Shown: positions 3,745 to 32,393 of the stretch, in pieces
Layout of the letters: every line of letters begins with the position of its first letter
Position numbering within the stretch: position 1 is the first letter of the stretch
Virus record (IMG/VR): IMGVR_UViG_3300017957_001772
Location: 1-34,228 of that record
Length of the DNA: 34,228 nucleotides
Origin: a virus
Reading direction: 5' to 3' (one strand)
The notes under the pieces: generated by a model
Databases searched by the model: none
Told to the model about the DNA's origin: nothing
Seen by the model: only the letters and a program-made list of their open reading frames with translations
Program-made: the position numbers and the translations under genes

Positions 3745-4758
3745 ATGATTGATTTTGTTGATATACAATATGCACAGACATTAGGTGGCCGCCTAGACAG
3801 GTTTCGTATTAGGTCCACTAATCCATATAAGATTAATTTCAGATGTCCACTTTGTGGTGACTCACAAAAATCAAAAACAAAAGCAAGGGGTTGGCTCCTT
3901 GAGAAAGACAATAACTTGTTCTACTATTGTCATAATTGCGGAGCAAGTCAATCCTTTTCCTACTTTCTCAAGACAGTCGACCCTCTTGCGTTCAAAGATT
4001 ACACATCTGAAAAATTTATTAATAAACACAAAAAGAAGGAGATGCCTGTATTAGAGGGAATGAAGTTTGAACAGCCCACTTTTACTAGCAACTCAACACT
4101 AAAAAAGATTAAAAAAGTATCACAATTATCTCATAATCACCCAGTAAAAACCTATATAGATAAGAGGAAGATTCCTTCGAATCATCATTATCGTCTTTAT
4201 TATGCGCCGAAATTTAAGGCATGGATTAATGGTATTATACCAGATAAGTTCTCGAATATAGATAAAGACGAACCTCGATTAGTGATTCCTTTTTTAGATG
4301 AACACAAAAAAATATTTGGTGTATCAGCCAGAGGGTTTGACCCCGATGGTATCAGGTACATCACAATTATGTTTGAAGATAGACCTAAAATCTTCGGATT
4401 AGATAAGGTTGACTTTAAACGACCATACATGGTCACGGAAGGTGCTTTAGACAGCATGTTCCTCAGAAATTCTGTTGCGATGGCAGGAGCGGAAGGAAAT
4501 ACATCTGCGCTCAAACATGCAAAAGAGAATGCGATATTCGTTTTCGATGCGGAACCTCGAAATAAAGAGATTCATAAACGCATGGAAAAAATTATAGAAC
4601 AGGGCTATAAGATTTGTATATGGCCCAACGATGTTCCTGGTAAGGACATCAATGAAATGTTTCTTAATGGTCTTACAAATGTTGAAGATTTTATTATCGA
4701 CAACATCTATAAAGGCTTAGAAGCTAAACTGAAATTCACTGAATGGAGAAAACTTTAA
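3745..4758 (+). CDS. DNA primase, T4 gp61-like
   Basis: The 337-residue protein has a DnaG-type zinc ribbon with Cys34, Cys37, Cys62 and Cys65 (RCPLCGDS ... YYCHNCGAS) and a central Toprim-like segment with VTEGALDSMFL at about 230-240 and IFVFDAE further on (about 265). These are the features of phage T4-type primases, which lay down short RNA primers for lagging-strand synthesis with the gp41 helicase; no helicase is in this window. Length is close to T4 gp61. The stop overlaps the start of thyX (TAATG), so the two are probably co-translated. Confidence 0.85.
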   Translation: MIDFVDIQYAQTLGGRLDRFRIRSTNPYKINFRCPLCGDSQKSKTKARGWLLEKDNNLFYYCHNCGASQSFSYFLKTVDPLAFKDYTSEKFINKHKKKEMPVLEGMKFEQPTFTSNSTLKKIKKVSQLSHNHPVKTYIDKRKIPSNHHYRLYYAPKFKAWINGIIPDKFSNIDKDEPRLVIPFLDEHKKIFGVSARGFDPDGIRYITIMFEDRPKIFGLDKVDFKRPYMVTEGALDSMFLRNSVAMAGAEGNTSALKHAKENAIFVFDAEPRNKEIHKRMEKIIEQGYKICIWPNDVPGKDINEMFLNGLTNVEDFIIDNIYKGLEAKLKFTEWRKL

Positions 4759-5438
4759 TGCATGCTAAATTGGTTAGTTATTCGCAACCCTCAGAAGAGG
4801 TCCTCAAAGAAGGATTACATAATGTACAAGACTTAATCGCGTTTTGTGCTAGAGTATCAAATCCCTCAAATCAGCTTAACACTGAAACAAGTGAAAAGCT
4901 TCTTAACTACTTAGCTAAACACAAACATTGGTCACCTTTCGAGATGACTAGTGCTTGTATCGAAGTCGAAACAACAAGAGACATCGCACGTCAATTATTA
5001 CGTCATAGGTCTTTTTCGTTTCAAGAATTTAGTCAAAGATATGCAGACCCTACAGAAGATTTAGAATTCGTAACGAGGGATGCAAGACTACAGGATAAAA
5101 CCAACAGACAAAATAGTATAGATATAGATTCGAATGATGAAACACACAGACGAATCAATGAGAATTTTCGAATGAAACAAAAGGCTTTTATCCGACAATC
5201 AAAAGAATTATATAATTGGGCAATTGAACAAGGTATTGCAAAAGAACAAGCACGTGCAGTACTACCAGAAGGTCTCACAGTTTCGAGATTATATGTAAAC
5301 GGAACATTACGTTCTTGGATACATTTCATCGAATTACGAAGTGGGAATGGAACTCAAAAAGAACATATCGAATTGGCAAGGGAAATCGCTTGTGTAATTA
5401 CAAGAATCTTTCCTATGGCCGCTAATTACGTACACTAA
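4758..5438 (+). CDS. thyX: Flavin-dependent thymidylate synthase ThyX
   Basis: The protein carries the ThyX signature RHRX7S, read as RHRSFSFQEFS at residues 82-92, followed by QRYADPT. ThyX methylates dUMP to dTMP using methylene-tetrahydrofolate, FAD and NADPH, feeding phage DNA synthesis. ATG 4758 (226 residues) is chosen because GGAGA at 4746-4750 is well placed and the start overlaps the primase stop; an in-frame ATG at 4743 would add five residues. It stands immediately before the ribonucleotide reductase genes, making a deoxynucleotide supply block. Confidence 0.95.
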   Translation: MHAKLVSYSQPSEEVLKEGLHNVQDLIAFCARVSNPSNQLNTETSEKLLNYLAKHKHWSPFEMTSACIEVETTRDIARQLLRHRSFSFQEFSQRYADPTEDLEFVTRDARLQDKTNRQNSIDIDSNDETHRRINENFRMKQKAFIRQSKELYNWAIEQGIAKEQARAVLPEGLTVSRLYVNGTLRSWIHFIELRSGNGTQKEHIELAREIACVITRIFPMAANYVH

Positions 5439-5450
5439 CAGGAGAAACAA

Positions 5451-7241
5451 ATGCAACATTTGGGCATAGAAATCGACAGTAAAAGAGATAAGATTCTCTC
5501 TGAACAGTCTTTTAAATTACTAAAAGACTATTATTGTAGGGAGGACGAGAAATCTCCTCAGATGGCATATGCACGAGCAGCTGTCGCTTTTTGTGGTGGT
5601 AATCTAAAACTCGCACAGAGAATATATGATTACGTTTCTAAAGGTTGGTTTATGTATGCAAGTCCTGTTCTTTCGAATGCACCAATCAAGGGAGAAGAGG
5701 TTAAAGCATTACCTATTAGTTGTTTCCTTACTTATGTACCAGATACATTAGATGGTCTTATAGACCACACAGCAGAACTTCGTTGGTTGTCTGTAAAAGG
5801 TGGAGGTGTTGGTGGACATTGGAACGACATTCGTGCTGTTTCAAAGAAAGCACCAGGTCCTATGCCTTTCCTTCATACAGTTGATGCTGACATGGTTGCA
5901 TATAGACAGGGACGTACACGTAAGGGTTCGTACGCGGCATACATGGATGTTGACCACCCAGATATCGTTGAGTTTATTAATATGCGTATTCCAACTGGTG
6001 ATGTGAATCGAAAGAATTTAAACTTACACCATGCAGTTAATATTACAGACAAGTTTATGGAAGCAGTTGAAGCAGGTGCTGAATGGGAATTATTAGACCC
6101 TAATGATAAATCAGTACGTGATACTATGCCAGCACGTAAACTTTGGGAACATATTTTAGAAACAAGATATAGAACAGGTGAACCTTACTTAAACTTTATT
6201 GATACTGCAAACCGTGCTTTACCTGACGCACAGAAAGCAATGGGTTTAAAAATTAAGGGGTCTAATCTGTGTAATGAGATTCACCTTGTGACCAACGAAG
6301 AACGCACAGCAGTTTGTTGTTTATCATCAGTTAATCTTGAAAAGTTTGATGAATGGGTAAGTACACCTATGGTAAAAGACTTAACTGTATTTTTAGATAA
6401 TGTTCTTCAATTCTTTATTGACAATGCTGGTGATGAAATTAGTAAAGCAAGATATTCCGCTCAACAAGAAAGGTCATTAGGTTTAGGTGCGATGGGTTTC
6501 CATTCGTATCTACAAAAACATTCAGTACCATTTGATTGCGAGTACGCATCAGGATTGAATGAAAGAATCTTTAAACACATTAAAGATGAAGCATTAGCAG
6601 CAACATTAGAAATGGGTAAACGTCGAGGTGAGGCTCCAGATATGAAAGGTACTGGAAGACGTAATGCACATATGTTAGCTATTGCTCCAAACGCAAACTC
6701 TTCTATGATTGTAAATACATCTCCAAGTATTGAACCTTGGAAAGCAAATGCATTTACTTCTCGTACAAGAGTAGGTTCTCACCTAAATAAAAATCCATAC
6801 CTCGAAGCCGAGCTTGAAAAGATTGGAAAGAATAACGAAGAGGTTTGGTCTTCAATTATTACAAACGGTGGTAGTGTACAACATCTTGATTTTTTACATG
6901 ACCACGTGAAAGAAGTATTTTTAACAGCAATTGAATTAAATCAATTAGCACTTATCAGATTAGCAGGTGAAAGACAAAAGTACCTATGTCAAGGTCAATC
7001 ACTAAACATCTTCTTCCCTGCAGGGTGTGATAAGAAAACTTTACATCAAGTCCACTATCAAGCGTGGAAACAAGGATGTAAAGGATTATATTATTTAAGA
7101 ACAGAAACATCTAACAGAGCAGAGAATGTAGCACAGAAAATTGAAAGAGAAAAGTTAGATGATATTATTAACCCAGACGCAGTAAAATTCAACAACGGTT
7201 CAGAGGAGAGTCAAGATGAGTGCGTTGCTTGTCAAGGATAG
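5451..7241 (+). CDS. nrdA: Ribonucleotide reductase class I large subunit NrdA
   Basis: The 596-residue protein has the catalytic set of class I alpha subunits: Cys91 in PISCFL, Asn272/Cys274/Glu276 in SNLCNEI, Cys290 in AVCCLSS, the radical-transfer tyrosine pair in GLYYLRTE, and a C-terminal CVAC redox pair four residues from the end. It converts ribonucleoside to deoxyribonucleoside diphosphates with NrdB. It is about 150 residues shorter than E. coli NrdA; the N-terminal ATP-cone that lets dATP switch the enzyme off appears to be missing, as expected of an enzyme run for phage replication. RBS is AGGAGA. The end lies close to or overlaps the nrdB start. Confidence 0.95.
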   Translation: MQHLGIEIDSKRDKILSEQSFKLLKDYYCREDEKSPQMAYARAAVAFCGGNLKLAQRIYDYVSKGWFMYASPVLSNAPIKGEEVKALPISCFLTYVPDTLDGLIDHTAELRWLSVKGGGVGGHWNDIRAVSKKAPGPMPFLHTVDADMVAYRQGRTRKGSYAAYMDVDHPDIVEFINMRIPTGDVNRKNLNLHHAVNITDKFMEAVEAGAEWELLDPNDKSVRDTMPARKLWEHILETRYRTGEPYLNFIDTANRALPDAQKAMGLKIKGSNLCNEIHLVTNEERTAVCCLSSVNLEKFDEWVSTPMVKDLTVFLDNVLQFFIDNAGDEISKARYSAQQERSLGLGAMGFHSYLQKHSVPFDCEYASGLNERIFKHIKDEALAATLEMGKRRGEAPDMKGTGRRNAHMLAIAPNANSSMIVNTSPSIEPWKANAFTSRTRVGSHLNKNPYLEAELEKIGKNNEEVWSSIITNGGSVQHLDFLHDHVKEVFLTAIELNQLALIRLAGERQKYLCQGQSLNIFFPAGCDKKTLHQVHYQAWKQGCKGLYYLRTETSNRAENVAQKIEREKLDDIINPDAVKFNNGSEESQDECVACQG

Positions 7242-7245
7242 AAAA

Positions 7246-8451
7246 ATGGATATAACAATTTATACTAAATCAAACTGCCCTTTTTGCGAAAAGGCAAAAG
7301 CTTGGTTTACTCAACATGGTATGAGCTATACTCAAATCATCTTAGATGATGAAGAACAAAGATTAGCTTTTTATCAAAAATTCTCAAATGGTAAAACTGT
7401 AAACTCAGTACCACAAATTTTTATTGATGATAAACATATTGGAACTTACAACGACCTTATGGAAGTAAGTGATACACTGATTAAGAAGCAAGGTGGATTA
7501 TTAGAATTCTCTGAAACATATAAGCCATTCCATTATCCTTGGGCAGTCCAAATTACAACAAGACACGAAAAAGCACATTGGATTGAAGATGAACTTGACT
7601 TGTCTGAAGATGTATCTGATTGGAAAGGTGGTAAGATTACACCTACTGAAAAAGAATATATTACAAACATCTTAAGATTGTTTACTCAATCTGATGTTGC
7701 AGTTGGTCAAAACTATTATGACCAATTTATTCCTAAGTTTAAGAATAACGAAGTACGTAATATGTTAGGTTCCTTTGCAGCTCGTGAAGGTATTCACCAA
7801 CGTGCTTATGCTTTATTAAATGAAACACTAGGTTTACCAGACAGTGAATATCACGCATTCCTAGAGTATTCTGAAATGGCTGACAAAATTGAGTACATGA
7901 GAAAAGCAGATGTTAATACATTAAGAGGTCTTGGTTTATCTCTTGCTAAATCTGTATTCAACGAGGGAGTTGCTCTATTCGCATCTTTCGTAATGCTGTT
8001 GAATTTCCAAAGATTTGGAAAGATGAAAGGTATGGGTAAAGTTGTAGAGTGGAGTATTCGTGATGAAAGTATTCATGTTGAAGGTAACTCAAAACTATTC
8101 AAAACATTTTGTAAAGAACACAGTCGTGTAGTTGATGATTCGTTTAAGAAAGAAATCTATGAGATGTCAAAAGATATCGTTGACCTTGAAGATAAGTTTA
8201 TTGATTTAGCTTATGAAATGGGAGAAATCGATGGTCTCCAGAAATCTGAAGTAAAAGAATATATAAGATATATTACAGACAGAAGGCTGCTTCAACTTGG
8301 TATGAAGACTAACTTTAAGGTAAAGGATAATCCTCTTCCTTGGTTAGAATGGGTATTGAATGGTGCTGACCATACAAACTTCTTTGAAAATCGTGTAACT
8401 GAATATGAAGTTGCTGGATTACAAGGGAACTGGGACGAAGCTTACGCCTAA
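7246..8451 (+). CDS. nrdB: Glutaredoxin-NrdB fusion, RNR small subunit
   Basis: Residues 1-80 are a glutaredoxin domain with active-site CPFC (Cys11, Cys14). The rest is a class I RNR beta subunit: EDELDLSED near the start, the SDVAVG acidic ligand, REGIHQRAY with Glu/His ligands and the likely radical Tyr, FNEGVALFASF, and RDESIHVEG. Beta makes and holds the radical; the fused glutaredoxin can recycle the CxxC of NrdA, as shown for such fusions in bacteria. ATG 7246 is preferred (AAGGA at 7234-7238); ATG 7216 also has an AGGAG and would overlap nrdA, adding ten residues. Confidence 0.93.
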   Translation: MDITIYTKSNCPFCEKAKAWFTQHGMSYTQIILDDEEQRLAFYQKFSNGKTVNSVPQIFIDDKHIGTYNDLMEVSDTLIKKQGGLLEFSETYKPFHYPWAVQITTRHEKAHWIEDELDLSEDVSDWKGGKITPTEKEYITNILRLFTQSDVAVGQNYYDQFIPKFKNNEVRNMLGSFAAREGIHQRAYALLNETLGLPDSEYHAFLEYSEMADKIEYMRKADVNTLRGLGLSLAKSVFNEGVALFASFVMLLNFQRFGKMKGMGKVVEWSIRDESIHVEGNSKLFKTFCKEHSRVVDDSFKKEIYEMSKDIVDLEDKFIDLAYEMGEIDGLQKSEVKEYIRYITDRRLLQLGMKTNFKVKDNPLPWLEWVLNGADHTNFFENRVTEYEVAGLQGNWDEAYA

Positions 8452-8462
8452 AAAGGTGAGCG

Positions 8463-9662
8463 ATGATTGAAAAAGCATATTTTCAGAATGTTATTGATAC
8501 ATTAAAAGACGAAGGAAAATATAGAGTCTTTAACGACATAGTGCGTGAAAGAGGCAACTTTCCTAAGGCAACCTGGTATTCTAAATATTCTCCAAAAACA
8601 ATAGTTAACTGGTGTTCCAACGATTACTTGTGCATGGGTCAAAACAAATATGTTATTGATGCTATGCAAACCGCGCTCGACAAGACAGGTTCGGGAAGTG
8701 GTGGTACAAGAAATATTGGTGGAACATCTCACTATCACGTTACTCTCGAAAGAACACTAGCAAAACTCCATAAAAAAGAAAAAGGATTATTGTTCACATC
8801 AGCTTATGTTGCTAATGAATGGACGATGATTGCACTATCACGAATCATTCCAAATATTTGTTTCGTATCAGATAATAAAAATCACGCATCATTGATTATG
8901 GGTATTAAACATAGTCGTGCTGAAAAAATTATCTGGGAACATAATAACATGGACGAATTAGAGTTGGCATTACAGACAGCTCAAATGAGCAATCAAGTTC
9001 CTTGTATTGTTTTTGAATCAGTGTATAGTATGGACGGTGATGTTGCGCCGATTAAAGAAATATGTGACCTTGCAGATAAGTATAATGCAATTACATATAT
9101 TGATGAAGTTCATGCAGTAGGACTTTATGGTGACACAGGTGCTGGATATTGTGAAAAATTAGGTCTATCTGATAGAGTCGATATCATAAATGGCACTCTA
9201 GGCAAGGCTTTTGGTGGCCATGGTGGTTATATTGTTGGAGAAGATATTGTCTTAGATGCCATTAGAAGTGTCGCCAGTGGATTTATATTCACCACATCGT
9301 TAAGTCCTGTTATGTGTGCAGGTGCTATTGCTTCAATAAGATGGTTAAAAGAACATAACGAATTAAGAGAACAACATCAAGAACGAGCTCAAACGCTACG
9401 TGAACTTTTTATAGATAATAATATAGAGGTGCATGAAGCATCTACAACGCATATTCTTCCAGTGATGGTAAGAGATGCAAAAAGAACTAAAGCAATGTCA
9501 GATAGGTTATTAAACGAGTATGGAATTTATATTCAACCAATTAATTATCCAACAGTCGATGTTGGTACTGAACGACTTAGAATTACACCAACACCATTAC
9601 ACACTAATGGTATGATGGAAGACCTCGTATCTGCATTGAAGGAGACGTTTAAAGAATTATGA
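8463..9662 (+). CDS. hemA: 5-aminolevulinate synthase (ALAS, Shemin pathway)
   Basis: The 399-residue PLP enzyme condenses glycine and succinyl-CoA to 5-aminolevulinate, the first step of heme synthesis in Alphaproteobacteria. It has GYRVF-type start ([10 protein letters not shown]), the ALAS-specific [15 protein letters not shown] (78-92; Thr82-Arg83-Asn84), NHAS with His141, [17 protein letters not shown] with Asp214, and the Schiff-base lysine Lys248 in TLGKAFG. The TRNI signature separates it from the related ligases KBL and AONS. Length and all catalytic residues are intact, so it should be active. RBS is AAAGGTGAGCG; it sits 11 bases after nrdB and overlaps the next gene by four bases. 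Confidence 0.95.
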
Positions 9663-10537
9663 AATGGTTAACACTATTTACATCACTAACGCTAGCATCA
9701 ACTGCAGCGTATTTTAGCATCATAGGATTGATGACTATTTTCAGTGGTGCAGCGTTGAGCATTTTAGTTATGGCTTCAGTATTAGAATTTGGAAAAATTG
9801 TGAGTGCTGCTTGGCTACACTACGAATGGGAACGTATTAATAATTTAGTACGTGCATATTTCACGACAGCAGTCGTGGTATTGATGTTAATAACTTCAAT
9901 GGGTATTTTTGGATTCCTTTCCAAGGCTCATATTGATAGTTCAATTACATCAGACAGTTATTCACTTGAAGCAAGCATAGTGGATAAAAGATTAGAAGGT
10001 AAACAACTTCAACTAGACAACTTAACTGGTCGTTTAGAAAACTTGGATTATGTACTACAAACAAGTAGACCAGAAGATAGAAATTACGTTAACAGAGTAC
10101 AAACAGAAGAACGTAATGAAATCAATTTAGATATTGATAACTTAGTCGCCGACATCGTAGAATTGAATGAACAAAAAATGCCTATTCAAAAACTTCAACT
10201 TGAACAAGAAGCTGAATTAGGTCCAGTAAAATATATTGCAGATATGATTTACGGAGAAGATGCGGAGTCGTTCTACGACAATGCAGTCCGTTGGGTAATA
10301 CTCACAATCATATTTGTATTTGACCCTCTTGCAATTATGTTGTTGATTGTATCAACCGCAGCGTTCAAGAGAGATAGAGAGCAAATGAATCCACTCGTAG
10401 ATGAAGAACAAATTCATAGAATGGATAAAAAGAAACAGTCAGATGAAATTGACTGGGACCGTGCTCCAAAGAAAACACCATCTAAGTCTCAAGACTCAGG
10501 TGGATTAAGTACAACATTAAATAGAAGACCAATATAA
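9659..10537 (+). CDS. Four-helix membrane protein with central coiled coil
   Basis: The 292-residue protein starts in ATGA overlap with the ALAS gene. Hydrophobic helices lie at about residues 5-25, 27-48, 64-90 and 212-236. Between them, residues about 105-185 are charged and coiled-coil-like, probably facing one side of the membrane. The tail (about 240-292) is polar and basic. I do not recognise a characterised family. Translational coupling to the ALAS gene means the two are made together, but no functional link is shown. Confidence 0.7.
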
Positions 10538-10538
10538 T

Positions 10539-10955
10539 ATGAATATAAAAAGAAGTCTATGGTTCGTCGCAGGACTAATATTACTAGGAATCGCATACAT
10601 AGGGGTAGTTATGCCAGGTATTCCTTTCTCAATCCCCGCAGTATTTGCTGCTTATTGCTTTGCAAGAAGTTCAGATAGAATGCACAAGTGGTTATACAAC
10701 CATAAAATCTTTGGACCATTTTTAACAAACTGGGAAACAAAGAAAGTATTTCCATTAAAAGCAAAATATGGAATGTTAGGATTTATGGCAATTGCTTTAA
10801 TCTTAATGATTGTCACAACAGGTAATTGGAAAGCAGTTATGTATTCTGGTACCTTTATGGCACTCGGTGCATGGTGGGGTTGGCAATATCCTTCTAGTCC
10901 AGAAGAGTACGACCAACGTGTGAAAGAAGGAAAGAAAATAGGTCTATTCAAGTAA
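10539..10955 (+). CDS. DUF454/YbaN-type inner-membrane protein
   Basis: The 138-residue protein has the pattern of the YbaN family: a first helix (about 7-27) ending in GVVMPGIPFSIPAVFAAYCF, the hallmark FARSSDRMHKWLYNHKIFGP (41-60), WETKKVFPLKAK, then two further helices (about 78-92 and 97-112). The family is common in Proteobacteria and its biochemical role is not known. It follows the previous gene by one base and is in the ALAS transcription unit. A host-derived accessory membrane gene is the simplest reading. Confidence 0.75.
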   Translation: MNIKRSLWFVAGLILLGIAYIGVVMPGIPFSIPAVFAAYCFARSSDRMHKWLYNHKIFGPFLTNWETKKVFPLKAKYGMLGFMAIALILMIVTTGNWKAVMYSGTFMALGAWWGWQYPSSPEEYDQRVKEGKKIGLFK

Positions 10956-31235: not shown

Positions 31236-32393
31236 TTGAGAATTGATAACGAAATAAAGCTTGACTATAAGGATGTTTTAATTCAACCAAAACGGTCAAC
31301 ACTTGGAAGTCGTAAAGAAGTAGATTTATATCGTGGATTTACTTTTCGTAATTATGAACCACCAGAAATGTCGATAGAATCTATCCGCGCGTCTGGAGAA
31401 ACTCCGCACTATTATGGTATTCCTATTATGGCTGCCAATATGGACGGAGTAGGAACGATGGAAATGGCTGACACTCTTTCGAAACAAGGATTGTTTACCA
31501 CTCTAGTGAAAACATATAGTGAAGATGAATTGATTGCATTCTATAATGACGACCAAATTCTTCGTACTGAATTTGTAGCATATAGCATGGGCATTAGTGA
31601 TGAAGATTTAACTAAATTCATTAAGGTTTACACATACAATAGAGAGTCGATTAAGTATGTCTGTGTAGATGTTGCAAATGGATATAGTAGTAGATTTAGA
31701 GATTTCATCGCAACCCTTAGAGAAAAGGCACCAAACATCGTCATTATTGCTGGTAACGTAGTAACAAAAGAAATGACAGAGGAGTTAATTTTAAGTGGAG
31801 CAGATATCGTTAAAGTCGGCATTGGTCCTGGGAGTGTATGTACTACTCGTATTCAGACTGGTGTGGGTTACCCTCAACTCTCTGCGGTCATCGAGTGTGC
31901 TGACGCGGCGCATGGTCTTGGAGGACATATCATTGCTGACGGTGGGTGTACTAATCCTGGTGATGTATGTAAAGCATTTGCCGCAGGAGCAGATTTTGTA
32001 ATGTTAGGTGGAATGCTCGCAGGACATGATGAAGGTGGTGGTAATGTAATTACTGAATCTATTATTTCAAACGTGCAGGCGCCCGCTACGTCCGCGGGGA
32101 TTGGTAAACGTATTGAGAAACAATTTGTAGAGTTTTATGGTATGAGTTCTAAATCTGCTAATGATAAACACTTTGGTGGATTAAAAGAGTATAGAGCGAG
32201 TGAAGGTCGTACAGTAAGAGTTCCTTATAGAGGTGCTGTACAAAATACTATTAATGATATTTTAGGTGGCTTACGTAGTGCATGTACATATGCAGGGGCC
32301 GCAAAGCTTAAACATTTAAATAAGTGTGCAACGTTTGTTCGTTGTACTCAAACACATAATTCAGTTTATGAATCATCTACAATAGGAGTATAG
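31236..32393 (+). CDS. guaC: GMP reductase (GuaC-like)
   Basis: A TTG start follows AAGGAGAG with good spacing. The 385-residue TIM-barrel protein has [15 protein letters not shown], the catalytic [11 protein letters not shown] with Cys202, [40 protein letters not shown], and [14 protein letters not shown] near the end, matching GMP reductase more closely than IMP dehydrogenase; no CBS domains are present. GuaC turns GMP into IMP and ammonia with NADPH. It is about 40 residues longer than E. coli GuaC, with an insert at about 41-60. IMP dehydrogenase activity is the main alternative. Confidence 0.85.

Follow-up and report, generated by a model that had tools for sequence, protein, structure and literature searches.

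Why would a phage carry a gene for 5-aminolevulinate synthase (ALAS) among its genes for nucleotide metabolism, and does that gene travel with a partner? We considered this question for a 34,228-base virus record, analyzed at its full length and called the window here, which may be a fragment. Endolysin, spanin-like, resolvase, exonuclease (phage nuclease) and PhoH-like genes elsewhere in the window indicate that it is phage DNA. It also encodes an IMP dehydrogenase/GMP reductase-domain protein (31236-32393, 225 bits), a further phage nucleotide-metabolism gene, and a search with Rfam at gathering thresholds returned no matches in it.

Phage ALAS genes, designated valaS, have already been reported from aquatic metagenomes, and the available text of that report describes one phage enzyme that complemented an E. 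coli ALA auxotroph and was shown to be active (Wegner et al., 2024, PMC11480375). The preliminary description of this locus, made from its letters, was right that ALAS genes are known from aquatic phage sequences. Phage ALAS itself is already known; the DUF454 partner described below is a useful addition.

A complete ALAS gene in the nrd/thyX operon

The ALAS gene (phage alaS) lies at 8463-9662 on the plus strand as a single open frame for 399 amino acids, with an ATG start, an SD-like AAGGTGA 5' of that start and no internal stops. Upstream on the same strand are genes for a T4-like DNA primase (3745-4758; PHROG 47 DNA primase, E 2.3e-69, and PHROG 451), the FAD-dependent thymidylate synthase ThyX (4743-5438; TIGR02170, 157 bits against a cut-off of 88), the ribonucleotide reductase large subunit NrdA (5451-7241; NF006577, 783 bits against 620) and NrdB with a fused N-terminal glutaredoxin domain (7216-8451; NF009398, 675 bits against 649). 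Eleven bases separate the nrdB stop at 8451 from the ALAS start, and the ALAS stop shares four bases with the ATG of a plus-strand gene for a 292-residue membrane protein (9659-10537). This protein matches none of the Pfam, NCBIfam or PHROG models, and its AF2 model is poor (pLDDT 53); read from its sequence, it has hydrophobic stretches at both ends with a long helical part between. Next on the same strand is a gene for a DUF454/YbaN-family membrane protein (10539-10955; PF04304, 95.7 bits against a gathering cut-off of 35.1). The gene arrangement is thus as first described, a phage-borne ALAS in an nrd/thyX operon, 11 bases past nrdB and overlapping the membrane-protein gene; the DUF454 partner had escaped that description.

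The identity of the product is equally consistent. Against the NCBIfam model for 5-aminolevulinate synthase (TIGR01821) it scores 559 bits, with a cut-off of 339 and an E value of 4.6e-168, whereas the models for sister enzymes remain below threshold (321 against 426 bits for bioF, 273 against 493 for kbl, TIGR01822). Its top relatives in the PDB are 7x98 and 2bwn, both named 5-aminolevulinate synthase, of which we take 2bwn to be the R. capsulatus enzyme. K248 lies within TLGKAFG, and TRNI occupies residues 82-85. These comparisons confirm the predicted protein as a complete phage-borne 5-aminolevulinate synthase (EC 2.3.1.37), in agreement with the intact enzyme, Lys248 and TRNI signature that had been read from the sequence at the outset.

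Conservation, ancestry and host

We aligned 77 phage ALAS sequences (dereplicated at 95% from 163) with 64 bacterial ones (dereplicated at 85% from 130), the latter being the nearest to the phage proteins and not representative of the Alphaproteobacteria as a whole. K248, H141, D214 and H217 are present in all 77 phage rows and do not vary in the bacterial rows either, and T82 with the TRNI residues is invariant in 77/77 phage and 64/64 bacterial rows. The window ALAS has all ten catalytic and substrate-site residues considered (K248, H141, D214, H217, T82, N84, I85, R21, T364 and R373), the roles of which we in part presume, and these columns are kept in 76 or 77 of the 77 phage rows; where a single row departs, it has a gap. 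Values of dN/dS between 0.05 and 0.09 in six pairs (the window ALAS against six relatives, with dS near saturation) indicate that purifying selection maintains the protein. Phage enzymes end about five residues sooner than bacterial ones, with a median of 27 against 32 residues after the arginine of ERLR, a motif present in 72/77 phage and 35/64 bacterial rows.

Within the set examined, the best bacterial identity of the window protein is 56.6%, which is near the value of about 55% to Pelagibacteraceae given for valaS enzymes in the available text of Wegner et al. (2024, PMC11480375). In a tree of 143 rows built rapidly with IQ-TREE (77 phage and 64 bacterial ALAS, one BioF and one Kbl), all 77 phage sequences occupy a single branch (SH-aLRT 97) nested in alphaproteobacterial ALAS, and BioF and Kbl, with one sequence each, fall outside ALAS at 99 on very long branches. 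The preliminary description had proposed a phylogeny as a check against the KBL, AONS and SPT enzymes; in this tree, which held one BioF, one Kbl and no SPT, the protein groups with ALAS. One transfer into phages suffices to explain the single branch, among rows that were collected through the window's own ALAS and linked genes (DUF454 and alternative oxidase, AOX), so that phage ALAS of other origin could be missed. The gene has the two features of a valaS, lying on a phage contig and falling in the phage clade of ALAS, a clade that was built without the published valaS sequences. Branches adjoining this clade have weak support and single out no donor lineage. The phage collection yielded no close ALAS (best match 35%), and several of the matching contigs resemble bacterial DNA. 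One phage ALAS match (G645:C1:53739-54917, locus L560) contains one in-frame TGA and may be a decaying copy, an error or a case of another code.

The presence of ALAS had also been taken to indicate an alphaproteobacterial host, and this claim was not sustained. The position of the phage clade inside alphaproteobacterial ALAS points to the gene donor, not to the present host, and we reject a host assignment from ALAS because the tree gives donor ancestry alone; the locus is a caution against host inference of this kind. The closest isolate by NrdA (73%) and NrdB (80%) is Melnitz, a methylophage of the gammaproteobacterial OM43 (MZ577095-MZ577098), whereas the primase is nearest to phages of the alphaproteobacterial Sinorhizobium (45%), so that the affinities of these genes point to different hosts. 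According to the available text of the respective reports, the Melnitz authors suggested that a switch of host between SAR11 and OM43 took place in the past (PMC9004378), and one valaS phage is predicted to infect a gammaproteobacterium, as cited in PMC11480375. The Melnitz NrdA (L556, 5950-7773) is annotated as a vitamin B12-dependent reductase though a small-chain gene follows, which is probably a misannotation.

A DUF454 protein accompanies phage ALAS

Our ALAS-anchored set comprises 81 loci, the window and 80 others (L001-L080). The gene caller picked early starts and dropped overlapping genes, losing nrdB from several loci and DUF454 from L038 and L046; cluster counts over the 81 loci are hence lower bounds. 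A homologue of the 292-residue membrane protein is present in 50 of them, and DUF454/YbaN, a family named here from one scanned member, in 56. Where at least 2.5 kb is available downstream, DUF454 was counted in 52 of 62 loci, and since the ten misses include L038 and L046, where the gene is in fact present, the true count is at least 54/62. PF04304 likewise occurs in 44 of 49 whole ALAS records, a set made up of the window plus 48 of the other 80 loci, chiefly longer contigs and mostly fragments. As a control we searched 33 ALAS-negative phage records with AOX over their whole length and found DUF454 in 0/33 (ALAS likewise 0/33); these records were drawn from AOX loci without ALAS or DUF454 inside 6 kb and are biased against nearby DUF454.

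A scan of IMG/VR anchored on DUF454 confirmed at least 560 relatives, and among the best 80 of these loci ALAS lies within 6 kb in 64. Contigs already met via ALAS account for 29 of the 80 (27 by a shared 120-mer, 2 by id), and the others are new. In 57 of the 64 loci DUF454 follows ALAS on one strand, in four it precedes ALAS, and in three the genes are on opposite strands; 26 of the 64 loci are free of nrd, membrane-protein and AOX genes. Two additional DUF454 queries gave ALAS in 37/80 and 47/80 loci, in overlapping sets and at a 100-bit limit under which the first query gives 65/80. After dereplication of DUF454 at 80%, ALAS is nearby in 13 of 32 roomy loci, nine of them with no more than 500 bp between the two genes and both on one strand. 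The pairing is frequent, yet the dereplicated count means that the tie is strong and not obligatory. The gene order is conserved in nrd-type phages, and in the phage clade of L071-L079 and kin DUF454 is not adjacent to ALAS.

We also considered phages in which DUF454 lacks a nearby ALAS. Of 48 distinct loci of this kind with enough flanking sequence, 33 were used. In these 33 records ALAS lies elsewhere in four and none was seen in 29; heme oxygenase (HemO) is present in 10, and ALAS or HemO in 12, counts that cover DUF454-bearing phages alone. A virus record of 452,799 bases, the size of a jumbo phage (G619), holds DUF454 and heme oxygenase, and ALAS was not found in it.

Phage ALAS is thus accompanied by a membrane protein of the DUF454/YbaN family, often adjacent to it and in several gene orders, an association that is new as far as the literature searched shows. 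The pair was not found in that search, which covered article texts chiefly outside subscription journals, and the main text of PMC11480375 contains no mention of DUF454, YbaN, alternative oxidase, nrd or ribonucleotide reductase; the valaS contigs may share the window's arrangement.

DUF454 in bacteria

Pfam labels DUF454 (PF04304) as a family of unknown function, and an AF2 model of the phage protein (pLDDT 80) gave no fold match in the PDB (best E 5). A C-terminal tail around GEKIGWLK is present in 54/54 phage DUF454 sequences and in 0/30 bacterial rows, although L344 among the latter appears to be read in the wrong frame. In a single sample of 200 Pseudomonadota genomes, DUF454 occurs in 71 and heme oxygenase above its cut-off in 20. 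Seven of the 20 HemO-bearing genomes (G112, G116, G148, G184, G200, G212 and G244) have the two genes directly adjoining on the same strand, separated by 44-186 bp, and in an eighth (G176) they lie 2.4 kb apart; in 64 of the 71 genomes with DUF454, no HemO was seen next to it. Several of the seven pair-bearing genomes carry another DUF454 gene at a separate site. Bacterial ALAS was found with DUF454 in 0/80 loci, 64 of which extend 2.5 kb or more to either side, and on short stretches (2.9-4.2 kb) in 0/30. The available text of two published studies agrees in part: DUF454 (118/1,111) and haem oxygenase (137/1,111) rank high in frequency among the significant neighbours of cluster-1 T11SS genes (PMC12282271), and an Avibacterium DUF454 gene is up under iron restriction (PMC7970244).

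Other genes near phage ALAS

Heme oxygenase is present in 3 and bilin reductase in 4 of the 49 ALAS records, both together in three. Neither was found in the window, which therefore lacks the hemO-pcyA/X-valaS cassette as far as this possibly fragmentary record extends. Alternative oxidase occurs in 15/81 ALAS loci (L004-L006, L017, L033, L034, L037, L039 and L045-L051; PF01786, 236 bits for L046), immediately after ALAS in 13. An AOX-anchored scan of IMG/VR confirmed 334 relatives, and of the best 80 loci 22 hold ALAS and 58 have none; we reject AOX as a specific ALAS partner because no more than 22/80 AOX loci hold ALAS. AOX occurs in cyanophages, and no paper on phage AOX in pelagiphage was found in the literature searched. 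A serine hydroxymethyltransferase cluster, named from one scanned member, lies a few genes downstream of ALAS in 16/81 loci (for example L033, 12950-14110), a possible glycine or one-carbon link with ThyX. A small protein two to four genes past ALAS in 16 loci (for example L030, 7614-7880) is presumably GroES-like, to judge from its sequence.

A proposed role and its alternatives

We favor, at a probability of roughly 0.55, a heme-supply module in which an active ALAS raises heme, DUF454 serves as a heme-linked accessory at the inner membrane and respiration is kept up. ALAS would be made from the nrd/thyX operon during infection and would condense glycine and succinyl-CoA to 5-aminolevulinate, raising the heme output of the infected cell. 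The DUF454 protein encoded downstream may then handle the product at the inner membrane, by delivery, storage or export of heme or porphyrin, and respiration would be sustained while host genes are shut down. The raised tetrapyrrole flow that had been suggested from the start is supported as the best reading of the sequence data. We infer the activity of the window ALAS, the rise of heme in infection and the benefit to respiration; the ALAS/heme half of this mechanism draws on family assignment, sequence conservation and the activity published for a related enzyme, and the DUF454-heme half would follow from two independent linkages, with ALAS in phages and with heme oxygenase in some bacteria. 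We also suggest, tentatively and with more doubt than confidence, that ALAS and a phage-specific form of DUF454 make up a mobile phage module in which DUF454 would be a new heme- or porphyrin-handling inner-membrane protein. If this were true, the phage linkage would disclose the function of the widespread bacterial DUF454. The family is common (71/200 Pseudomonadota genomes), and two separate linkages make a heme role directly testable.

An account that deserves weight, unlikely as we consider it, accepts an active ALAS that raises tetrapyrroles and puts the DUF454 link down to synteny passed on by descent, or to a membrane gene of general use in phages, with no role in heme. The wide distribution of DUF454 in phage contigs (at least 560 relatives), the presence of ALAS near just 13 of 32 dereplicated DUF454 loci and the conserved gene order in nrd-type phages speak for such an account. 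It is harder to reconcile with a linkage that turns up repeatedly, in more than one gene order and also where no nrd genes are in sight, with the 0/33 count in the control records, with the DUF454 genes that adjoin heme oxygenase in some bacteria, and with heme oxygenase in 10/33 DUF454 phage records without nearby ALAS, a count taken in DUF454-bearing phages alone. The alpha-oxoamine synthases are known for varied substrates, and a best bacterial identity of 56.6% within the set would leave space for an enzyme that has come to use a different acyl-CoA or amino acid and makes a new product; the invariance of T82/TRNI in 77/77 phage and 64/64 bacterial rows and a score far over the ALAS cut-off (559 against 339 bits) make such drift extremely improbable.

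ALAS might also matter for what it consumes and not for heme, draining glycine and succinyl-CoA, for example the glycine released by serine hydroxymethyltransferase during methylene-THF supply to ThyX. Its seat in the nrd/thyX operon and the serine hydroxymethyltransferase cluster downstream in 16/81 loci fit this idea, to which we nonetheless give little credence, since the window has no member of that cluster, many ALAS loci have neither nrd nor thyX in view, and the DUF454 and heme oxygenase links indicate heme. Nor do we find it at all probable that ALAS feeds a breakdown of heme through HemO and bilin reductase to gain iron or bilins, with these genes on a missing part of the genome: neither gene was found in the window and both are rare among the 49 ALAS records, mostly fragments too, even though three relatives carry both, the window may itself be a fragment, and the available text of PMC11480375 describes a three-gene cassette.

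Comparison with known systems

The heme-supply module, our preferred reading, can be set beside four known systems. As described in the available text of Wegner et al. (2024, PMC11480375), valaS resembles the window ALAS in being aquatic and phage-borne, in standing apart from bacterial ALAS and in keeping the catalytic residues, and stand-alone valaS copies are reported. The settings differ, the published cassette being hemO-pcyA/X-valaS and the window reading nrdA-nrdB-alaS-membrane protein-DUF454, with hemO and bilin reductase not found.

The R. capsulatus ALAS (2bwn) and the window ALAS have the same catalytic residues over their full length. R. capsulatus His342, however, aligns with R341 in the window ALAS, which is without Cys in its last 25 residues. 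The available text of Wegner et al. suggests that phage ALAS escapes inhibition by heme where His342 or Cys400 is absent (PMC11480375). His is found at the His342 column in 0/77 phage rows and in 1/64 bacterial rows, and Cys within the last 14 residues in 14/77 phage and 8/64 bacterial ALAS. As the column is non-His in 63/64 bacterial relatives, the missing His342 is not phage-specific; the case for lost heme feedback as a phage trait is weakened, and these counts warn against taking the absence of His342 for a phage adaptation.

Melnitz and the window share the nrdA-nrdB order after the primase. In Melnitz nrdB is followed by small hypothetical genes, and ALAS, DUF454, the membrane partner and AOX are absent from 13.8 kb around nrdA; a search of the window ALAS and DUF454 against the whole phage collection gave no Melnitz match.

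The bacterial DUF454/YbaN protein encoded beside heme oxygenase belongs to the same Pfam family as the phage DUF454 and occupies a heme-linked setting in seven genomes. The phage form differs from it in its GEKIGWLK tail and in its partner, which is ALAS rather than HemO.
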